In this document: positions 3,521-17,950 of the stretch, piece after piece
How positions within the stretch are numbered: the stretch's first letter is position 1
Layout: each line of letters opens with the position of its first letter
Origin: Candidatus Zixiibacteriota bacterium
Lineage (GTDB): Bacteria; Zixibacteria; MSB-5A5; UBA10806
Assembly: GCA_020348065.1 (NCBI GenBank)
Contig: CP070742.1
Span: 2,896,481-2,956,183, forward strand
DNA length: 59,703 nucleotides
Reading direction: 5' to 3'
Notes under the pieces: model-generated
The model's input: the letters and a program-made list of their open reading frames with translations, nothing else
What the model was told of the DNA's origin: nothing
Databases searched by the model: none
Position numbers and translations under genes: made by a program

Positions 3521-3812
3521 CAGCCGCGAAAGTAAAGAATGCCATACAATCTCTCGGCCCTTAAATTTATAATTTCGTATTAATAATAAATATTATGGCT
3601 TTTTGGTAACTCCGGTGATTCTGCCGGAAAAAGTGTTTTCTTAATTTTTAGTAATTATGTATATTGCTATGAAGCTGTCAGATTGCGTTTTTGGCACGCA
3701 TATTCGGTTAACAATTGGGAACGCAATTTGGTTTTTGTATGTTAATAGGTTGAGTTATGAAGGTAAGAGTAAAATCCATCCCTTTATTAGCCTGATCCCG
3801 GGAGGTAATTAT

Positions 3813-6800
3813 ATGCGTTATCGGTCAATTGCGGCATCCCTGGTTATATTCTTGATTTGTATACCTGTAGCCGAAAGCGAAAATATTATTTTAGGCGACG
3901 GTTCGTCGGGGGTTACTGTCGTTGAGCAGCAACAGAATCGCACAGTATTAACCGTGAAGGTTTCTGATATCGATCTTGAAGAGATTGAATCGGCGGGGCG
4001 CAGAGTTTCCAGATTATCGCTGCCGGAGGAGTTCGGAATATCCGCGGGGGCCGCCCCGGGGTCGGGCAGTGTATTGCTTCCGACCATTACCCGGAATATC
4101 GCGGTGCCTTTCGATTCGGAACCGGTCTTAAGAGTTACCCGCACGTCTTATAGGGAATTGGGCGGTGTAACCCTGGCGAGGGCGACCGAAGAGGAACTCG
4201 AATCCTATTATAAGGAAGATCACAGTTTTTCATTACACTCGCGAGACGAGATTGTCTCGGCGGAGATCGCCGGCGTGATGAGAGATATAAAGATTTACTC
4301 CATTACCGTGGCTCCGGTTAAATATGATCCGGAAAACTCCACGCTGGGAATATATCACGATATCGAGATTGAAGTTGAACATGCCGGTTCGAAGCTTACG
4401 CGATTCGACAATCAGATATCCGAAGCGTTCGCGCCCATCTATCGCGCGATTCTGGATAATCCCGCAATATTTGATCCCATCGGCGTTACCCGTGGAGCCT
4501 ACTGGATTATATATCCCGATGGTTTTGGCGCCCAGATTCAGCCCTTTGCCGAGTGGAAACATCGGAAAGGATTTAGCGTGGAGATAATAGCCAAAAGCGA
4601 TATCGGTTCTTACCCGACTTATCTGACCATAAAAAATTATATTATCGCCAGATACGATTCCTGCCAGGTAAAACCGGACTACATCGTCATCTTCGGGGAC
4701 GTTACCATGCCGTCAAACCTGGGCATCCCCACCAGGAACTATCTCAATCCTTTCGGTATGGGCGATATCGAGTCAGATAATTATTACACGTTCATCGAGG
4801 GAAACGATTATTTTCCGGAAATTTTCATCGGCAGGATATCGATCGATTATATCAGTGAGGTGAGCAGCTATCTGAACAAGTTTTTCTCCTATGAACGAAC
4901 GCCATACATCGATGATACCGACTGGTATTTGCGCGCCACGGTAGTATCCGGCGGAGATAACGGCTATTTCGTAAGCCCCAGAATCACGAAATTATGGTGC
5001 GGCGATCGAATGAGCGACGTCGGATTTACCAATATCGATACGCTCTTTGACTCCTACAGCAACTATGTAACTCCGGCCGAGATAAACGCCTCTATCAACA
5101 GCGGGGTGTGCTACGTGAATTACCGCGGTTACGGCAATCCTTCAGGGTGGACGGCGCCTCATTATACCTACAGCAATCTTACCGGCCTTTATAACGGTCC
5201 CAAATACGCTATTATGACCTCTATGGTATGCGGCACCGGCGATTTTGACGACAGCTGGACCGATGTGTGTTTCGGGGAGGCCTGGATTAGATATAGCGGA
5301 AAGGGCGGCCCCGGTTTTATCGGCAACACCAACCATGACGGTCATACTAAATGGACTAACGCCCTCGATTGTGGCGTGTACTGGGGTCTGTTTGTCGAAA
5401 ATGTCTCTTCTCTCGGGCAGGCTCAATATATTGGCAAAATGGTATTGTGGGATGCCTTTCCCAACGACCGGCATCTTGGCGGGCAAGTTGATCTCTATTT
5501 TAACAGCTATAATATTCTGGGCGATCCGGAGTTAAATTGCTGGACCGGTGTGCCCGAATATATGACGGTTACTTGTGCCGATTCAATAGAATTCGGGTCA
5601 AACCTGTTATCCGTGCAGGTTGACGATAATTCCGGAAGCCCCTTGGAGGGCGCTTACGTTTGTATAACCAACGATAACGATGTATTTGAGGGGGGATTTA
5701 CCTCTCAGGGCGGTTTAATTCATTTTAATGTTGTGCCAAACATGGCCGGGGATATGTATGTTACCGTAACCGCTCGTAATTTCATTCCCTATGAAGGCGT
5801 TGTAACGTATTATAGTACCGACGTTTCTGTCGGTTACGAGGCTCATGTTATCGATGACGATAACACCGGTCAATCTTCGGGTAACGGTAACGGGATCGCC
5901 AATCCCTCCGAAACGATTGAGCTCGAAGTCGACCTGCACAATTTCGGGCAGTCCGTTACCGCCGTTGGCGTTTCCGCTATATTATCATCCGATTCTCCTT
6001 TCATAACGGTAACTGATGATAGCGCCGATTTCGGGAATATCGCTCCCGGAGTGACAGTTGCGGGGGATCAGCCTTATTTGATTGATATAGCTTCGGATGC
6101 GTTTGATGGGATTTCGGTCGATCTTCTTTTATCCGTTTCGGACAATAACGGCAACTACTGGAATTCTATGATTCAGATTCCCGTCGAAGCGGCCCTGTTC
6201 GAGGTAGATAATGTTACCATACTGGATAACGGAAATAATCAGATAGATCCCGGCGAGGTTTTTGAAATGTACCTGTCGGCGTCCAATATCGGAAACAATA
6301 ATATAACAGGGGCAACGGCGATACTTCGAACCGTGGACGATCAGGTAACCATATACGATTCCATAGCCGCTTTCGGAGACTGTGCGCCAGGAGGCTCATT
6401 CGACAACAGCGGGGCCGAATTTATGCTGTCAGTCGATTCGGATATCTACGTGGGACATCTGATAAACTTCACCATAGAATTCACGGGAGCGGGTCCCCAG
6501 GTCGTTACCGCTTCTTTCAATCAGGTTGTCGGTACGATATCCTCGGACGATCCTATAGGCCCCGATGACTATGGTTATTACTGTTTTGATAATACCGATG
6601 TAAGCTACGATGATCATCCAACCTACGAATGGATAGATATAGACACCCAGCACTGGCCCTATATTCAGCCGGCTGACGACGATGTTATCATTCTGGATCT
6701 GCCGTTCACGGTATCGTATTATGGAAATATGTATGATGGAATTTCCGTATGCGACAACGGCCACATTGCCATGGGCCGGTCATGGTGGAATGCCTGGCAC

Positions 6801-7505
6801 AACACACCCATCCCCGCTCCCCAGAACGCGGGTGCCATGATCGCGCCGTTCTGGGATGATCTGAAATACTCAAGCTACAGCAACATGGGGCCCAGAATTT
6901 ATTATCATCATGATGATACCGGCGGGTATTTTATTATCGGCTATGATAACGCCTGGGCGGACGATGTTTACCGTTACCAGACATTCGAGATCATAATCCT
7001 CGATCGTCAGGCCTGGCCCACAGAAACCGGCGATAATGAAATTATATTCCAGTATCTTGACGTAAACAATCCCTACTCTGCCTCGGTTGGTATTTGTTCG
7101 CCTGACAGGAGAGTCGGTCTCGAGTATCTTTTCAATAATCGTTACTCCGACGGAGCGGCTGCGCTGGCTGACGGCCGTGCCATAAAATTTACGACCGGAT
7201 CAACTTATAATACCGATATCGAAAACCGCAACAGTATTCCCGGAGCTTTCTCTCTTTCTCAGAGTTACCCCAATCCATTTAACGCCGCTGTTACGATTGA
7301 GTTCTGCATCGCGGTTTCCGAGGATGTCAGACTCGAGATTTTCAATCTTCTGGGGCAAAGTGTTGAAACGTTAGTCGACGGCAAGCTGGATGCCGGAACG
7401 CATAGAATTTCGTGGAACGCCGCCGGGCAATCATCCGGAATATATTTTTATAAATTAACCGGCCGAGGATTCGAAGAAACCAGACGGATGACTCTTTTGA
7501 AATAA
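3813..7505 (+). CDS. Gingipain-like C25 cysteine peptidase with T9SS sorting domain
   Basis: 1230 residues from the ATG at 3813, which follows GGGAGGTAA and opens a clear signal peptide (MRYRSIAASLVIFLICIPVA). The open frame extends upstream to 3657, but that part has no ribosome binding site and would bury the signal. A propeptide-like region precedes a C25 catalytic domain with IIYPDGFG, YIVIFGDVTMPSN, SMVCGTGDF (putative nucleophile Cys), CFGEAWIR and GNTNHDG. The position where many C25 enzymes have GHG reads YRGYGNP, so the catalytic His is not obvious. CARDB/Ig-like repeats follow, then a lectin-like region, then a sorting domain from YPNPFN to the terminal LLK. Predicted to be exported through T9SS and cell-attached or released. 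Activity is inferred. Confidence 0.85.
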   Translation: MRYRSIAASLVIFLICIPVAESENIILGDGSSGVTVVEQQQNRTVLTVKVSDIDLEEIESAGRRVSRLSLPEEFGISAGAAPGSGSVLLPTITRNIAVPFDSEPVLRVTRTSYRELGGVTLARATEEELESYYKEDHSFSLHSRDEIVSAEIAGVMRDIKIYSITVAPVKYDPENSTLGIYHDIEIEVEHAGSKLTRFDNQISEAFAPIYRAILDNPAIFDPIGVTRGAYWIIYPDGFGAQIQPFAEWKHRKGFSVEIIAKSDIGSYPTYLTIKNYIIARYDSCQVKPDYIVIFGDVTMPSNLGIPTRNYLNPFGMGDIESDNYYTFIEGNDYFPEIFIGRISIDYISEVSSYLNKFFSYERTPYIDDTDWYLRATVVSGGDNGYFVSPRITKLWCGDRMSDVGFTNIDTLFDSYSNYVTPAEINASINSGVCYVNYRGYGNPSGWTAPHYTYSNLTGLYNGPKYAIMTSMVCGTGDFDDSWTDVCFGEAWIRYSGKGGPGFIGNTNHDGHTKWTNALDCGVYWGLFVENVSSLGQAQYIGKMVLWDAFPNDRHLGGQVDLYFNSYNILGDPELNCWTGVPEYMTVTCADSIEFGSNLLSVQVDDNSGSPLEGAYVCITNDNDVFEGGFTSQGGLIHFNVVPNMAGDMYVTVTARNFIPYEGVVTYYSTDVSVGYEAHVIDDDNTGQSSGNGNGIANPSETIELEVDLHNFGQSVTAVGVSAILSSDSPFITVTDDSADFGNIAPGVTVAGDQPYLIDIASDAFDGISVDLLLSVSDNNGNYWNSMIQIPVEAALFEVDNVTILDNGNNQIDPGEVFEMYLSASNIGNNNITGATAILRTVDDQVTIYDSIAAFGDCAPGGSFDNSGAEFMLSVDSDIYVGHLINFTIEFTGAGPQVVTASFNQVVGTISSDDPIGPDDYGYYCFDNTDVSYDDHPTYEWIDIDTQHWPYIQPADDDVIILDLPFTVSYYGNMYDGISVCDNGHIAMGRSWWNAWHNTPIPAPQNAGAMIAPFWDDLKYSSYSNMGPRIYYHHDDTGGYFIIGYDNAWADDVYRYQTFEIIILDRQAWPTETGDNEIIFQYLDVNNPYSASVGICSPDRRVGLEYLFNNRYSDGAAALADGRAIKFTTGSTYNTDIENRNSIPGAFSLSQSYPNPFNAAVTIEFCIAVSEDVRLEIFNLLGQSVETLVDGKLDAGTHRISWNAAGQSSGIYFYKLTGRGFEETRRMTLLK

Positions 7506-7658: not shown

Positions 7659-9518
7659 ATGAAATTTAACGGGATTTTTTTGTCTTTTTTTATATTCGCA
7701 TTTCTGATACCGATCGAAGGCGGCGCTCAGCTGCCCGACACTTATACACGTTATAATGAAGCTCTCCGGACTCTTTCGGATCTGGCGGCAGACAATCCCG
7801 CGATTTGCAGACTCGATACCATGGGCTATTCCACCAGGGATTCAATTCCCATGTTAAGAATGAAAATATCGGACAATGTACATATTGATGAGGATGAACC
7901 GGCGGTCTTTTACTGCGGGGGCGTACACGGGGATGAAGTCCTCGGTGTTGAAGTTGTTATAAATTTTATACAGGATATAATTCGTCTATATAACCTCGAA
8001 GATCCCGATATCAACAGGTATGTCGACAACATAGAGATATTCTGCGTACCCTACATAAATCCCGAGGGGCATATTGAGGTGGAGGGCGGGAATACCTTAT
8101 GGCGCAAAAACAAATGCGATAACGACGACAACGGAGTTTTCGATATTCATGACGGTGTCGACAATAACCGTAATTACGATTTCGGCTGGGATATAGATAT
8201 CAGCCCGGAAACCACGACGCCGGAATCGCTGATGTTCAAAGGAACGGCTCCATTCACGCAACTGGAAAATATAGCGATGGCCGATTTCGGATGGCATTAC
8301 CGGCCATTGGTGGCGCTCGATTATCATTCTCCGACCTACGGCCGTCCCAATGTCGCCTACTATCCCTGGTACTGGTATTCCAGCCAGGGCGGTCACGGAG
8401 TCGGTCCGGACGAGGCTTTGATGCAATCGATTTGCCAGAGTTTTACGTCATTGATTGCAGCGATACCTGATGATTCCTCCACCGGAACATATACGGCCCG
8501 ACGAGCCCTGGTCAACAAGGGGGATTTAAAGACATATTTTTATGGAAATTTCGGCAGCGCCTCTTTCACGGTTGAGATCTCGGACACCACGATCCAGGAC
8601 CCGGCCCTGATGGATTCCATTGTAACCGCTCATCTTGCCGGTCAGTATTACCTGCTGGAGAGGGTTCTCGGTCCCGGTATTACAGGTGTGATCCGCGATT
8701 CCGTGACCCTTGAGCCTATTGAGGCCGAGGTACAGGTTCAGCAACATATTAATACCGATATAAATCCTCGTCTTTCCAGACCGGACCACGGCCGTTACCG
8801 CAGGCTGCTCGCCCCCGGAAGCTACACCCTGGTTTTTTTAAAGGACGATTACCAGACCAAAACATTATATAATGTCGCGGTTAGCGGCGGCGGTCCGACG
8901 GAGACAGATATTTTATTAAGGCCCCTGCATCCCAGGCCTCCGGCACCGGAACCTGAATATCCTCCTCAAGATACTACGCTCACCGATAATACCGTCACGT
9001 TTATCTGGAACTCCTCCATATTCGCCGATTATTACCTGTTTGAGCTTTACTACGAGTATGATTTTCCGAATCCGGCTTATATAGATTCTGCTGTAGCGGA
9101 CACCTCATTTGTATTTTCAACACCTTTGTCTGATTCTCTCTACGTCTGGCGCGTTAAGGGCGGCAATGAAAACGGCTGGGGACCCTGCTGCGAACCCCGG
9201 TTTTTTACCATCTCCAGCGCCGCTTCGTACGGTTACGATTATATAAGAACACCTTCGAATTTCAGGCTTCGCCAGAATAGACCCAATCCTTTTAATCCCT
9301 CCACCAGGATTGAATTCGATCTGCCCGTTGAATCACGAGTGGATATGGAGATTTTCAACGTACTCGGGCAGATTGTAGATTCAATCTATTTGAATTCCCT
9401 TTCCCCGGGAAAATATGCAGTAACATGGAACGGCTCCGGGTTTCCATCGGGGGTTTATTTTTACAAGCTTATGGCCGGAGAGTATCTTGAAATTAAAAAA
9501 ATGACTCTTTTAAAATAG
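7659..9518 (+). CDS. Secreted M14 zinc carboxypeptidase with T9SS sorting domain
   Basis: 619 residues. A signal peptide (MKFNGIFLSFFIFAFLIPIEG) follows a GGGAG ribosome binding site. The M14 domain has zinc ligands in GGVHGDE (H90, E93) and LDYHSPTYG, a substrate-arginine-type motif VDNNRNYDFGW and a likely general-base Glu in FTVEISDT. The insertion DNDDNGVFDIHDGVDNN is acidic and could bind calcium. Next come a carboxypeptidase-regulatory-like domain (GVIRDSVTLEPIEAEV), a fibronectin III-like segment and a sorting domain (RPNPFNPS to MTLLK). It would trim C-terminal residues from peptides outside the cell, complementing the C25 endopeptidase encoded 150 bases upstream. Confidence 0.88.
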   Translation: MKFNGIFLSFFIFAFLIPIEGGAQLPDTYTRYNEALRTLSDLAADNPAICRLDTMGYSTRDSIPMLRMKISDNVHIDEDEPAVFYCGGVHGDEVLGVEVVINFIQDIIRLYNLEDPDINRYVDNIEIFCVPYINPEGHIEVEGGNTLWRKNKCDNDDNGVFDIHDGVDNNRNYDFGWDIDISPETTTPESLMFKGTAPFTQLENIAMADFGWHYRPLVALDYHSPTYGRPNVAYYPWYWYSSQGGHGVGPDEALMQSICQSFTSLIAAIPDDSSTGTYTARRALVNKGDLKTYFYGNFGSASFTVEISDTTIQDPALMDSIVTAHLAGQYYLLERVLGPGITGVIRDSVTLEPIEAEVQVQQHINTDINPRLSRPDHGRYRRLLAPGSYTLVFLKDDYQTKTLYNVAVSGGGPTETDILLRPLHPRPPAPEPEYPPQDTTLTDNTVTFIWNSSIFADYYLFELYYEYDFPNPAYIDSAVADTSFVFSTPLSDSLYVWRVKGGNENGWGPCCEPRFFTISSAASYGYDYIRTPSNFRLRQNRPNPFNPSTRIEFDLPVESRVDMEIFNVLGQIVDSIYLNSLSPGKYAVTWNGSGFPSGVYFYKLMAGEYLEIKKMTLLK

Positions 9519-13915: not shown

Positions 13916-15187
13916 ATGAAAAGTAAAGTCGTTTTGTTGTCAATACTGTCGATTTTTGTTGTTTCAAACGCCTTTGCCTCCAGGATCTTAATACCTATGG
14001 ACAATAGCCAGACCGATCATTTGAAGGCCTATGGTCTGGCCTATTGGTGTCTTCAGTACGGGGTTAAGGTTGAATGGCTGTTAAATTATCGGGGCGGATC
14101 GTTCATGACCGAGGATATTTCTCAGATAGAGGAAGCCTGCAGACTGAGGGGAGTATCCTGCGAGAAAATCAGCGGAGCGGATGAGGCCCGGATCATAAAT
14201 ATAATCGAAGAAAGCAACATGGAATCAGTGCTTTTGGAAAAGGCGCCAAAGGTGGCGATATACGCGCCGCCTTCGCGTAAAAGCGAGCCCTGGGACGATG
14301 CCGTGAACCTGGCCCTGGAATACGCGGAAATCCCTTTTGACATTATCTGGGATCCGGAAGTCCTGCTGGGAAAGCTGAGCGAATATGATTGGATTCATCT
14401 TCATCACGAGGATTTCACCGGTCAATACGGCAAATTTTTCGCCGCTTACAGAAACACTATGTGGTACAAACAGGATAAAGCCCTAAATGAGACCACGGCT
14501 CACGAACTCGGTTTCACCAAGGTATCGAAATTGAAGCTGGCGGTCTCGGAAGCCATTCATGATTACGTGGTCAGAGGCGGCTTTTTATTTGCCATGTGTT
14601 CCGCCACGGACACGTATGATATCTGCCGGGCGGCGTACCGGACCGATATCGTGCCATCGGAGTCTGACGGCGACGGCGTGGACCCGAATCATGAATCCAG
14701 ACTGGATTTCGGGCGCACTTACGCATTTGAGAATTTCAGTATAGTCATAAATCCCTCGATTTATGAACATTCGAGTATCGACACCTCGCCAACCCGCGGC
14801 AGGAGATCCCTTACTCCCGAATCCGATTATTTTTCTCTTTTTGATTTCTCCGCGAAATGGGATCCCGTTCCCACCATGCTCGTTCAGAATCATAGCGACG
14901 TCGTTAAAGGATTCTGGGGTCAATGTACGGGATATAACAGTCGTTATATAAAAAAGAATGTAACAATCCTTGCTGAAACACCCGGAAAGGAAGAAGCCAA
15001 GTATATACACGGCAATATAGGAAAAGGGACTTTTACGTTTCTTGGCGGGCACGACCCCGAGGATTATCAGCATATGATCGGCGATCCTCCCACGGACCTG
15101 CGTTTGCACAGGCATTCACCGGGATACAGGCTGATTCTGAATAATGTATTGTTCCCGGCGGCGAAAAAGAAAGAGAGAAAAACCTGA
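13916..15187 (+). CDS. Secreted GATase1-like protein ('asparagine synthetase B'-annotated family)
   Basis: 423 residues with a signal peptide (MKSKVVLLSILSIFVVSNAFA) after GAGGAG. The mature start RILIPMDNSQTDHLKAYG, then WLLNYRGGSF, IYAPPSRKSEPWDDAV and the HLHHEDFTG stretch match a family in Bacteroidetes-like genomes that is often labelled asparagine synthetase B, although I see no asparagine synthetase domain. The second half resembles a class I amidotransferase-like fold, with FAMCSATDT as a nucleophile-elbow-like Cys. Real substrate unknown. It is the first gene of a run of four; its TGA overlaps the next gene's probable CTG start. Confidence 0.7.
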   Translation: MKSKVVLLSILSIFVVSNAFASRILIPMDNSQTDHLKAYGLAYWCLQYGVKVEWLLNYRGGSFMTEDISQIEEACRLRGVSCEKISGADEARIINIIEESNMESVLLEKAPKVAIYAPPSRKSEPWDDAVNLALEYAEIPFDIIWDPEVLLGKLSEYDWIHLHHEDFTGQYGKFFAAYRNTMWYKQDKALNETTAHELGFTKVSKLKLAVSEAIHDYVVRGGFLFAMCSATDTYDICRAAYRTDIVPSESDGDGVDPNHESRLDFGRTYAFENFSIVINPSIYEHSSIDTSPTRGRRSLTPESDYFSLFDFSAKWDPVPTMLVQNHSDVVKGFWGQCTGYNSRYIKKNVTILAETPGKEEAKYIHGNIGKGTFTFLGGHDPEDYQHMIGDPPTDLRLHRHSPGYRLILNNVLFPAAKKKERKT

Positions 15188-16035
15188 CCGTAAGGATCGA
15201 AAAGCATCTTGGCGGCAGAACAGGTTTCGCGGCCGCGCCGTTGTTCCGCGATTTGAAATCTATCGCCGATTTCGCTTCGGAACACGATTTTGATTTCGTG
15301 CAGCTCAGCCTGGATTTTTCCCTATTGTTTCCGGAAAATCTGACAGAGTCCCGGCGAGGGGAAATTCGGAAGTATTATTATGATAAGAACATAGGTCTTT
15401 GCTTTCACGGCCCGTCGGATATTCCTCTTGTGAATCGACACAAAGCCATAAGGGAAGCGGGCCTGAATCGGCTGTTTGAAATGATCGACCTGGCGGTGGA
15501 GCTGGGGGGGGAGTTCTTTATTTTTCATCCCGGCAGGCTGGCGTTTTATTCTTCGGGAAAAAATAAAGTGCTATTCATGGAAGACCGTATTCCGCCAAAG
15601 CGCCTGATTTTTTTCAGAGACTCTCTATATAAAATACTGGAATATGCGGCCGGCCGCATTTCCGTATGTATCGAAAATACGCATTACATGCCCTTAAGTT
15701 TTCTTGATGTGATCAATGAAATGGTCAGGGATCGGGGATTGTATCTGGTGTGGGATGTCGGCTACACGGACGTTCTGCCGGCCGATAAGAGGGCGCGCAT
15801 GCTTAAATTTTTCAATGATAATATAAGATATGTAAAAATCGTCCACCTTCACGACATAACCGATTCCGGGGGACATAAAGCTCTGGGTACCGGATCGTTG
15901 AACATCTCCGCTTATCTGGATATAATAAATACCATTAAAGCCGATGTCGTTCTGGAGATATTTCCCGAAAAAAGTCTGCTCGAATCGATTGGGTATTTGA
16001 ACAGTCTGGCGGCCAACCTTAAGATTATGCCATGA
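15184..16035 (+). CDS. TIM-barrel sugar phosphate isomerase/epimerase-like protein
   Basis: About 283 residues. Xylose-isomerase/AP-endonuclease-2-like barrel, seen in FHGPSDIPL, EFFIFHPGR, VCIENTH, YLVWDVGYTD, KIVHLHDI and VVLEIFP, which supply the usual Glu/Asp/His metal site. Cytosolic; the reaction is probably isomerisation or epimerisation of a sugar derivative. Start: the first ATG/GTG/TTG-type codon is TTG at 15241, but homologous-looking sequence (TVRIEKHLGGRTGF) continues upstream. CTG at 15184 overlaps the previous stop as CTGA and follows AAAGAGAG, so I place the start there as a rare CTG. The next gene overlaps by four bases (ATGA). Confidence 0.75.
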   Translation: MTVRIEKHLGGRTGFAAAPLFRDLKSIADFASEHDFDFVQLSLDFSLLFPENLTESRRGEIRKYYYDKNIGLCFHGPSDIPLVNRHKAIREAGLNRLFEMIDLAVELGGEFFIFHPGRLAFYSSGKNKVLFMEDRIPPKRLIFFRDSLYKILEYAAGRISVCIENTHYMPLSFLDVINEMVRDRGLYLVWDVGYTDVLPADKRARMLKFFNDNIRYVKIVHLHDITDSGGHKALGTGSLNISAYLDIINTIKADVVLEIFPEKSLLESIGYLNSLAANLKIMP

Positions 16036-17135
16036 AATTCGCATGTAACATAATATTGATGATCTGTATTGTCAGTTTTATCGCCGTCCCGGTTTCGGCT
16101 TCGGTGAAATGCGATGTATGCAAAAAAGATATCAAGGGTAAATATGTTGCCGGGCCGGATAACACCGCCTATTGCCGGGAATGTTACACAAGATACTCCG
16201 CGTGTTCGGTATGCGGTAAAATATACAAATCGTTAATAAACGTGGACGATTATAAGGTTTGCGGCGGCTGCTATGTGGATCTGGAGAAATGCGACATATG
16301 CGGGAAGGTATTGATGGGAAGTTATGTTATGTATCCCGATATAGGCATCAATGTATGCGGCGACTGTGATAAGAACAGCCCCAGATGCGAAGCGTGCAAC
16401 AGGCCCTGCAAAAAATTAAATCGTATAGGAAACGCCATGCTCTGCAACAGCTGCGCCCCCAAAGCGGATCGGTGCTATTCCTGCGGCGACGCGTTGCTGG
16501 AAAATTACAAATATTTCGAGAGTGACAAATCGAAAAAATATTGCCTGAGGTGTATTTCGAATTATGAGTCTTGCGCTGATTGCGGGGCGCCGTCGGGACC
16601 GGGAGGTTTAAAGCTGGACGACGGCCGATACCTTTGTTCTGATTGCCGCAGAGAGGCGATCTTCAATCCTTCTCTGATAACTCCGATAAAACTGGACGTT
16701 ATAGAGTTTCTTTCAAACGGATTGGATATGGATATCGAACATAAAATCAATTATTCGGTTCAGGATAAAAAATTCCTGGAGAAAAAATCGAAAGGTTTGA
16801 GCGAGGATATTAACGGGCTTTTTTATAGAAAAGATAATGATTATAACGTGTATGTTCTATACGGTTTGAGAAAGAAGGACCTGATCTGGGTTCTGGCGCA
16901 TGAAACGACCCATGCCTGGCAGGCCGAGAACTGCTCCGAAAGGTTAACTGAAGAGGACCGTGAGGGATTCGCGCAGTGGGTGGCCTACCGTACGGCGCAG
17001 AATTTCGGATACCGGGAGTATGCCGAGAACATGCGGGGCGGCGAAAGTGTATATTCCTCGGGTCTAAATAGGATGATTGATCTTGAGAAAACCGGAGGAT
17101 CCAAAGCGGTTTTTGATTATATAAAGGCAAAATGA
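16032..17135 (+). CDS. Secreted DA1-like metallopeptidase with six zinc-ribbon/LIM-like modules
   Basis: 367 residues. Signal peptide to about residue 23 (ending VSAS). Residues 27-205 hold twelve CxxC pairs forming six modules (27/51, 58/80, 87/112, 119/141, 148/174, 181/205), each CxxC-X17-22-CxxC, with a constant six-residue link between modules. The C-terminal domain has VYVLYGL and LAHETTHAW (H290, E291, H294) followed by EGFAQWVAY (E311 as third ligand), the layout of plant DA1/DAR peptidases, which also sit behind LIM domains. A zinc-dependent extracytoplasmic protease is the likely role; substrate unknown. Its ATG overlaps the preceding stop (ATGA), indicating coupling to the TIM-barrel gene. 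Confidence 0.75.
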   Translation: MKFACNIILMICIVSFIAVPVSASVKCDVCKKDIKGKYVAGPDNTAYCRECYTRYSACSVCGKIYKSLINVDDYKVCGGCYVDLEKCDICGKVLMGSYVMYPDIGINVCGDCDKNSPRCEACNRPCKKLNRIGNAMLCNSCAPKADRCYSCGDALLENYKYFESDKSKKYCLRCISNYESCADCGAPSGPGGLKLDDGRYLCSDCRREAIFNPSLITPIKLDVIEFLSNGLDMDIEHKINYSVQDKKFLEKKSKGLSEDINGLFYRKDNDYNVYVLYGLRKKDLIWVLAHETTHAWQAENCSERLTEEDREGFAQWVAYRTAQNFGYREYAENMRGGESVYSSGLNRMIDLEKTGGSKAVFDYIKAK

Positions 17136-17176
17136 ACGGATTCGGAAATTGTTTTTGATTGATTTTGAGGAAGAAA

Positions 17177-17950
17177 ATGACAGATAGCCCGGAATACAAA
17201 AAATATGATTTATTGGTATTCGGCGCTCATCCCGATGATATAGAGGTGGGATGCGGCGGTTTGATAATCAAGCTAAATAAAATGGGATACGGATCCGGCC
17301 TTGCCATCCTTACCCGGGGCGAGATGGGCACCGGCGGAACCTCTGAAATACGTAGAGAAGAGGTTAGAAACGCGGCCGGATTAATGGGCGCGGAAATTGT
17401 GGCTCACCTGGATATGGGAGACTGCAAAGTAGAGGACAACTACGAATCGAGGCTGGCGGCGGCGGAAATTATCAGGCGGCATAGACCCTCTATTGTATTT
17501 GCTCCCTGGTGGACAGGCGGACACGGTAAGAGACAATCGCACCCGGATCACCTGGCCTGCGGGCGGATCGCTGTTAACGCCGTTAATTACGCCACCTTCA
17601 AAAAGCTGCCCCTCGATTTTCCCCCGCACCGTGTAAACGCGCTGTTTCATTACATGCTTCCGCCGGAGGTTCCCCCGACCTTCGTGGTGGATATAACCGG
17701 CGAATACGAGCAATGGATAAAGGCTCTTTCGGCCCATCGTTCGCAGTTCTTAAATCCCGACAAGGAAAAAGACTATCTCTGGTCATTGGAGTCGATGGCC
17801 CGCACCTACGGCAACCTGATCGGGGCCAAGTACGGGCAGGGCTACGCCATCGGCGAACCCTTGAAAATAGAGAATCCTTTCTGCCTGGTGGGCTCCTGCG
17901 GCCGCCTTCCGGAACTGCTTATTGAGAAAAAGACCAGCGATGAGGAATAA
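17177..17950 (+). CDS. bshB1: LmbE/PIG-L family deacetylase, BshB1-like
   Basis: 257 residues from the ATG at 17177, which has TGAGGAAG upstream; the frame is open from TTG 17159 but that start is inferior. The zinc site is AHPDDIEVGCGG near the N-terminus and SHPDHLACG (about residue 123). WWTGGHGKRQSHPDH and the C-terminal SHRSQF-like stretch (AHRSQF) are typical of N-acetyl-glucosaminyl-malate deacetylase 1 of bacillithiol synthesis. Cytosolic. bshA and bshC are not in the window, so bacillithiol use is only a suggestion; another N-acetyl-sugar could be the substrate. It follows the DA1-like gene by 41 bases and ends the run. Confidence 0.75.
   Translation: MTDSPEYKKYDLLVFGAHPDDIEVGCGGLIIKLNKMGYGSGLAILTRGEMGTGGTSEIRREEVRNAAGLMGAEIVAHLDMGDCKVEDNYESRLAAAEIIRRHRPSIVFAPWWTGGHGKRQSHPDHLACGRIAVNAVNYATFKKLPLDFPPHRVNALFHYMLPPEVPPTFVVDITGEYEQWIKALSAHRSQFLNPDKEKDYLWSLESMARTYGNLIGAKYGQGYAIGEPLKIENPFCLVGSCGRLPELLIEKKTSDEE

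Follow-up and report, generated by a model that had tools for sequence, protein, structure and literature searches.

A predicted exported DA1-type peptidase with six regular four-cysteine modules in the phylum Zixibacteria

LIM domains and DA1 alike are mostly treated as eukaryotic and cytosolic. In plant DA1 the peptidase motif reads HEMMH-x15-E-E (PMC5322733), and the substitution C274Y in the LIM-like region abolishes both ubiquitylation and peptidase activity (PMC5322733). The combination of the two is already known in bacteria, since that paper, in a passage citing Burroughs et al. (2011), notes a high similarity between the DA1 family and proteins predicted in Roseiflexus that have four CxxC/H pairs (PMC5322733). 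The protein presented here is a recurrent and apparently exported form of this combination in an uncultured bacterial phylum.

The protein is encoded in the 59,703-nucleotide stretch of DNA that was analyzed (the window) by an ORF at 16032-17135 on the + strand, which begins with ATG, specifies 367 residues and is present as a single copy in the one-contig 3.74 Mb genome. Conservation in relatives identifies the ORF as a real gene. As in plant DA1/DAR proteins, a zinc-finger region precedes a DA1-like HExxH peptidase with an E-G third ligand, and the spacing of the motif agrees with that of DA1. However, six Cys4 modules stand in place of one LIM and one LIM-like domain, the motif reads HETTH...EGFAQW instead of HEMMH, and the protein is predicted to be exported whereas DA1 is cytosolic. 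The first module follows directly on the signal peptide, a Pfam scan of the protein gave no match to a UIM, and the ubiquitin layer of plant DA1 is not part of it. Taken as a whole, the best explanation, to which we assign a probability of roughly 0.75, is that the gene encodes an exported zinc metallopeptidase of the DA1 family.

A regular cysteine array joined to a DA1-like domain

Twelve CxxC pairs begin at residues 27, 48, 58, 77, 87, 109, 119, 138, 148, 171, 181 and 202, such that the gaps between successive pairs are 17-6-15-6-18-6-15-6-19-6-17. These resolve into six modules with internal gaps of 17, 15, 18, 15, 19 and 17 residues and five joints of exactly 6. In 20,000 composition shuffles the count never rose above 9 pairs, and the residue positions and the shuffle test together bear out the preliminary description, which had counted six modules with six-residue joints ahead of a HETTH...E motif. 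The motif is where it had been placed: HETTH occupies residues 290-294 (16899-16913, +), providing two predicted zinc ligands and the predicted catalytic glutamate, and is followed after 16 residues by E311-G312, with E311 (16962-16964, +) as the predicted third ligand. The pattern HExxH-x16-E-G is found with identical spacing in 29 of the 29 homologues examined.

A unit of two modules (a,b) occurs three times in the array, odd modules resembling odd ones and even resembling even; with cysteines masked, the odd-versus-even division scored best of the ten possible 3+3 splits (13.8 versus 5.4 for the next). All lie on the + strand. Sequence, conservation and model define the first four predicted zinc modules, namely module 1 (type a, CDVC...CREC, residues 27-51, 16110-16184), module 2 (type b, CSVC...CGGC, residues 58-80, 16203-16271), module 3 (type a, CDIC...CGDC, residues 87-112, 16290-16367) and module 4 (type b, CEAC...CNSC, residues 119-141, 16386-16454). 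For module 5 (type a, CYSC...CLRC, residues 148-174, 16473-16553), which aligns to CxxC...HxxH/CxxH in a sister subfamily, and module 6 (type b, CADC...CSDC, residues 181-205, 16572-16646), the definition comes from sequence, model and sister alignment.

For the mature protein, AlphaFold gave a model with a mean pLDDT of 91.4 from 11 sequences. Each of its six modules opens with a CxxC knuckle, continues into a beta hairpin and has its second CxxC where a helix begins, the helix of module 4 being short. This arrangement is the anatomy of a treble clef, and as modelled the array is six successive treble clefs in three a+b pairs. Are these LIM domains? A serial arrangement of treble-clef zinc modules is shared with LIM (PF00412), and the top Foldseek match in the PDB is a LIM pair, PINCH LIM4-5 (E 9.1e-5). 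However, the Pfam LIM score of 15.2 bits falls below the gathering cut-off of 22.9, and the hallmark two-residue LIM spacer is missing because every joint has 6 residues. With a spacer of 6 instead of 2 the modules are separate, single treble clefs, and LIM domains proper are ruled out. The earlier suggestion of LIM-like modules therefore holds for serial zinc-type treble clefs with a LIM pair as the best fold match, and fails for LIM in the strict sense.

The DA1-like peptidase domain (residues 206-367, 16647-17132, +) scores 25.3 bits against PF12315 where the Pfam cut-off is 25, a margin of only 0.3 bits over residues 272-332 only; in a six-frame search of the DNA the score was 26.5 bits. 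Modelled in isolation, the domain reaches a pLDDT of 90.9. The nearest solved folds are weak and mixed (SPRTN, E 0.038; YbeY, 0.048; M61, ~0.1), and this similarity to the peptidase fold of the SPRTN/SprT, YbeY and M61 proteins, at E 0.04-0.1, is accompanied by other architectures and little sequence support. Structure prediction, proposed earlier as a check, was thus clear for the module treble clefs and gave only weak matches (E > 0.03) for the peptidase domain. A sequence search of the PDB with the single protein returned no match, and no DA1 structure was found there by sequence.

Homologues supply a firmer assignment. A single-sequence search of the genome contigs found no relative; a profile search recovered relatives. 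Of the 132 genomes of the phylum Zixibacteria, 40 contain a match at E <= 0.001. The relatives form two subfamilies, A, to which the six-module protein belongs, and B, its sister, and no genome was seen to carry both. Subfamily A comprises ten members from this genome's own order and from G007, and PF12315 matches all ten at E values up to 1 (best, 1.3e-6). In subfamily B, LIM and DA1-like Pfam matches are found in 18 of the 18 members analyzed, and the profiles of A and B match over their full length (hhalign E 1.8e-41). The DA1-type assignment is marginal when made from this protein alone, and by sequence comparison it holds firmly through the sister subfamily, because that subfamily carries both domains and aligns over its whole length. 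The proposed DA1-like peptidase, and the DA1-like order of zinc modules followed by peptidase, are accordingly upheld: the C-terminus matches DA1-like, and all 18 sister proteins have both parts.

The two subfamilies differ markedly. In a peptidase-domain tree containing bacterial members only, a long, fully supported branch of 2.6 changes per site parts A from B. The sister proteins (L011-L030) have a similar exported N-terminus, but their modules are canonical LIM, with the two-residue spacer, and LIM-like, with His and Asp among the ligands and joints of 8, 8 and 6 residues, whereas in subfamily A all ligands are Cys and every joint is 6. Since the last joint in most subfamily B members is also 6 residues, the regular array may derive from duplication of the pair nearest the peptidase. 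Across the ten subfamily A homologues, down to 35% identity, 23 of the 24 module cysteines are invariant; the remaining one is lost once, in L009, where C61 is replaced by Y. The module joints are free of insertions and deletions in the alignment. C301, which lies near the active site, was considered as a possible cysteine switch; it is absent from two of the ten relatives and from all sister proteins, and such a switch is therefore unsupported.

A relative of the subfamily A type was also observed outside the sequences labelled Zixibacteria: L040 (7449-8942) has four Cys4 modules, 28% identity and the motif HEIAHAWQAENC...EGFAEW. No relatives were found in viral contigs. Matches on Embleya and Streptomyces plasmids cover only the Cys-rich stretch and were set aside as chance cysteine similarity. 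The Streptomyces record (L041, 2293-4728, plasmid NZ_CP107962.1) is a hypothetical protein of 811 residues with a Cys-rich stretch, lacks a DA1-like match and adjoins an Imm21 family immunity protein, so that the two are a possible polymorphic toxin pair.

Gene neighbourhood and export

Directly upstream of the peptidase gene lies a gene for a TIM-barrel protein assigned by Pfam to the AP_endonuc_2 family (15241-16035, +), which overlaps the peptidase start by 4 bases and is a candidate for co-transcription. In eight of eight relatives' contigs (L031-L038) it occupies the same position. Such linkage would be expected if the two proteins served one pathway, for example in maturing an envelope component, a reading that is compatible with the best explanation. 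We nevertheless consider it unlikely, because no signal peptide is evident in the TIM-barrel protein and the two proteins would therefore reside in different compartments, and because the linkage, like the rest of the subfamily A neighbourhood, is missing from the subfamily B loci. The TIM-barrel protein was also considered as CbiR and rejected at a score of 59.6 against an NCBIfam cut-off of 105.

On the other side, at 17159-17950 (+), a BshB1-type deacetylase (189.9 bits; cut-off, 182.5) is found downstream here and in four relatives. BshB1 is a deacetylase of bacillithiol biosynthesis, here encoded beside a Cys-rich peptidase, and a low-molecular-weight thiol pathway may be present. Further upstream, 13916-15187 (+) encodes an exported protein of 423 residues that has no Pfam or NCBIfam match, is 70-90% identical with gene order kept in seven relatives, and appears to be a very conserved core protein of the phylum. 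It occurs in 117 of the 132 genomes, most of which lack the peptidase, and is therefore not a specific partner. No Rfam match was found in the window.

The N-terminus of the peptidase carries a predicted Sec-type signal peptide (residues 1-23, 16032-16100, +). By simple rules it is a hydrophobic segment with a hydropathy peak of 3.2 that ends in V-S-A|S without a lipobox, the likely cleavage site being judged by eye, and relatives complete at that end have a similar N-terminus, also lacking a lipobox. The signal peptide of the preliminary description is thus retained as a prediction shared by homologues. An alternative is that this segment is an uncleaved inner-membrane anchor and that the protein acts in membrane or envelope protein quality control. 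The hydrophobic segment is indeed close to the array, the first module starting 3 residues past the predicted cleavage site, and the peptidase has no match to a Por-type sorting tail even though two neighbouring proteases carry one. However, a loose pattern finds a small-x-small motif of the kind recognized by signal peptidase ahead of the first Cys in 26 of the 28 homologues checked, and we regard anchoring as quite unlikely.

For the exported protein, where would it reside? Omp85 proteins are encoded at 11 places in the genome, which therefore belongs to an organism with an outer membrane, and with no sorting tail on the peptidase the periplasm is its most likely final location. The neighbouring proteases are a gingipain-like peptidase C25 with a propeptide (3657-7505, +) and a zinc carboxypeptidase M14 (7659-9518, +), and their Por secretion-system sorting tails suggest type IX-like secretion in this genome.

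Zinc or disulfides outside the cytoplasm

Do the module cysteines hold zinc, or do they form disulfides? The CxxC pairs could be redox-active or structural disulfides in an oxidizing periplasm, given that the protein appears to be exported, that CxxC is also the thioredoxin-type redox motif and that three genomes with the family carry Dsb-like genes. The comparison with subfamily B argues against this. At the aligned ligand positions the sister proteins have Cys, His or Asp, the one exception being a row with Ala (L022), whose protein does not have the module concerned. C77, for example, becomes Asp, C138 and C174 become His, and C171 becomes His or Cys. Histidine and aspartate are zinc ligands and are unable to replace a disulfide partner, the loss of which would leave arbitrary residues. 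Because the cysteines are exchanged only for His or Asp, zinc is favoured over disulfides, and the treble clefs of the model point the same way. Zinc at the module cysteines is thus the supported reading, and the disulfide alternative appears improbable.

The enzymes of the phylum are consistent with this assignment. An HMM search in which controls worked detected no VKOR, DsbA or DsbB in this genome, although in so divergent a phylum such a result falls short of proving absence. Among the 132 phylum genomes, matches to DSBA were found in five (three over cut-off) and to Thioredoxin_4 in five (four over cut-off), and G019 and G056 contain the only two VKOR matches. In each of these two genomes a single frame was observed to carry VKOR together with two DsbA-like matches (G019:C23:169504-171282 and G056:C34:31729-33468). 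Three genomes (G056, G089 and G099) have a Dsb-like match together with a subfamily B gene, and thus Dsb enzymes and LIM-DA1 proteins are not mutually exclusive. The scarcity of disulfide-forming enzymes may explain the existence of an extracytoplasmic cysteine-zinc protein, in that such modules can persist because the usual enzymes appear to be absent. It had been noted at the outset that zinc modules outside the cytoplasm would be unusual. The oddity is real, but it is not a quirk of one gene: it is a phylum-wide rule that fits the near absence of disulfide enzymes.

Proposed working and implications for the DA1 family

In the proposed working of the exported DA1-family metallopeptidase, the Sec signal peptide would direct export through the inner membrane, with the periplasm as the most likely destination. 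The N-terminal 180 residues would fold as six Cys4 treble clefs with one zinc each, in three tandem a+b pairs, and zinc would support this folding in an envelope where cysteines are probably not oxidized. From motif and family, the C-terminal domain is predicted to bind a catalytic zinc through H290, H294 and E311, with E291 as the putative residue for peptide-bond hydrolysis. By analogy with plant DA1, the most likely function of the six-module arm is to bring substrate to the one-zinc active site or to gate it; the effect of C274Y in the plant protein makes such a regulatory or structural role plausible. Our best guess at the role is turnover or processing of envelope proteins. That the protein is instead a catalytically dead relative, its zinc array a binding scaffold and its peptidase fold kept for structure, is a doubtful alternative that could appeal to the strong divergence of subfamily A from the sister clade (the 2.6-change branch), but HExxH, the third-ligand E, Y341 and G344 are invariant over the ten members to 35% identity, a degree of conservation that would be surprising if activity had been lost.

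New, as far as found, are the all-Cys subfamily with six modules and six-residue joints, its phylum-wide export and the link to missing disulfide enzymes. We tentatively hypothesize, as a serious possibility, that structural zinc replaces envelope disulfides in a diderm phylum that is mostly without disulfide enzymes, and that the LIM region of an exported DA1-family protein was rebuilt there, possibly by duplication of the a+b pair, into a rod in which six Cys4 treble clefs follow one another regularly, forming the extracytoplasmic, zinc-dependent arm of a protease. The near absence of disulfide enzymes makes the replacement of disulfides by zinc outside the cytoplasm a testable prediction. 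Because sequence searches of the PDB turned up no structure of DA1, a compact and confidently predicted bacterial member could give a route to one. Moreover, the bacterial form has no ubiquitin-binding motifs and therefore offers a simple model for the joint action of a DA1-type peptidase and a zinc arm.
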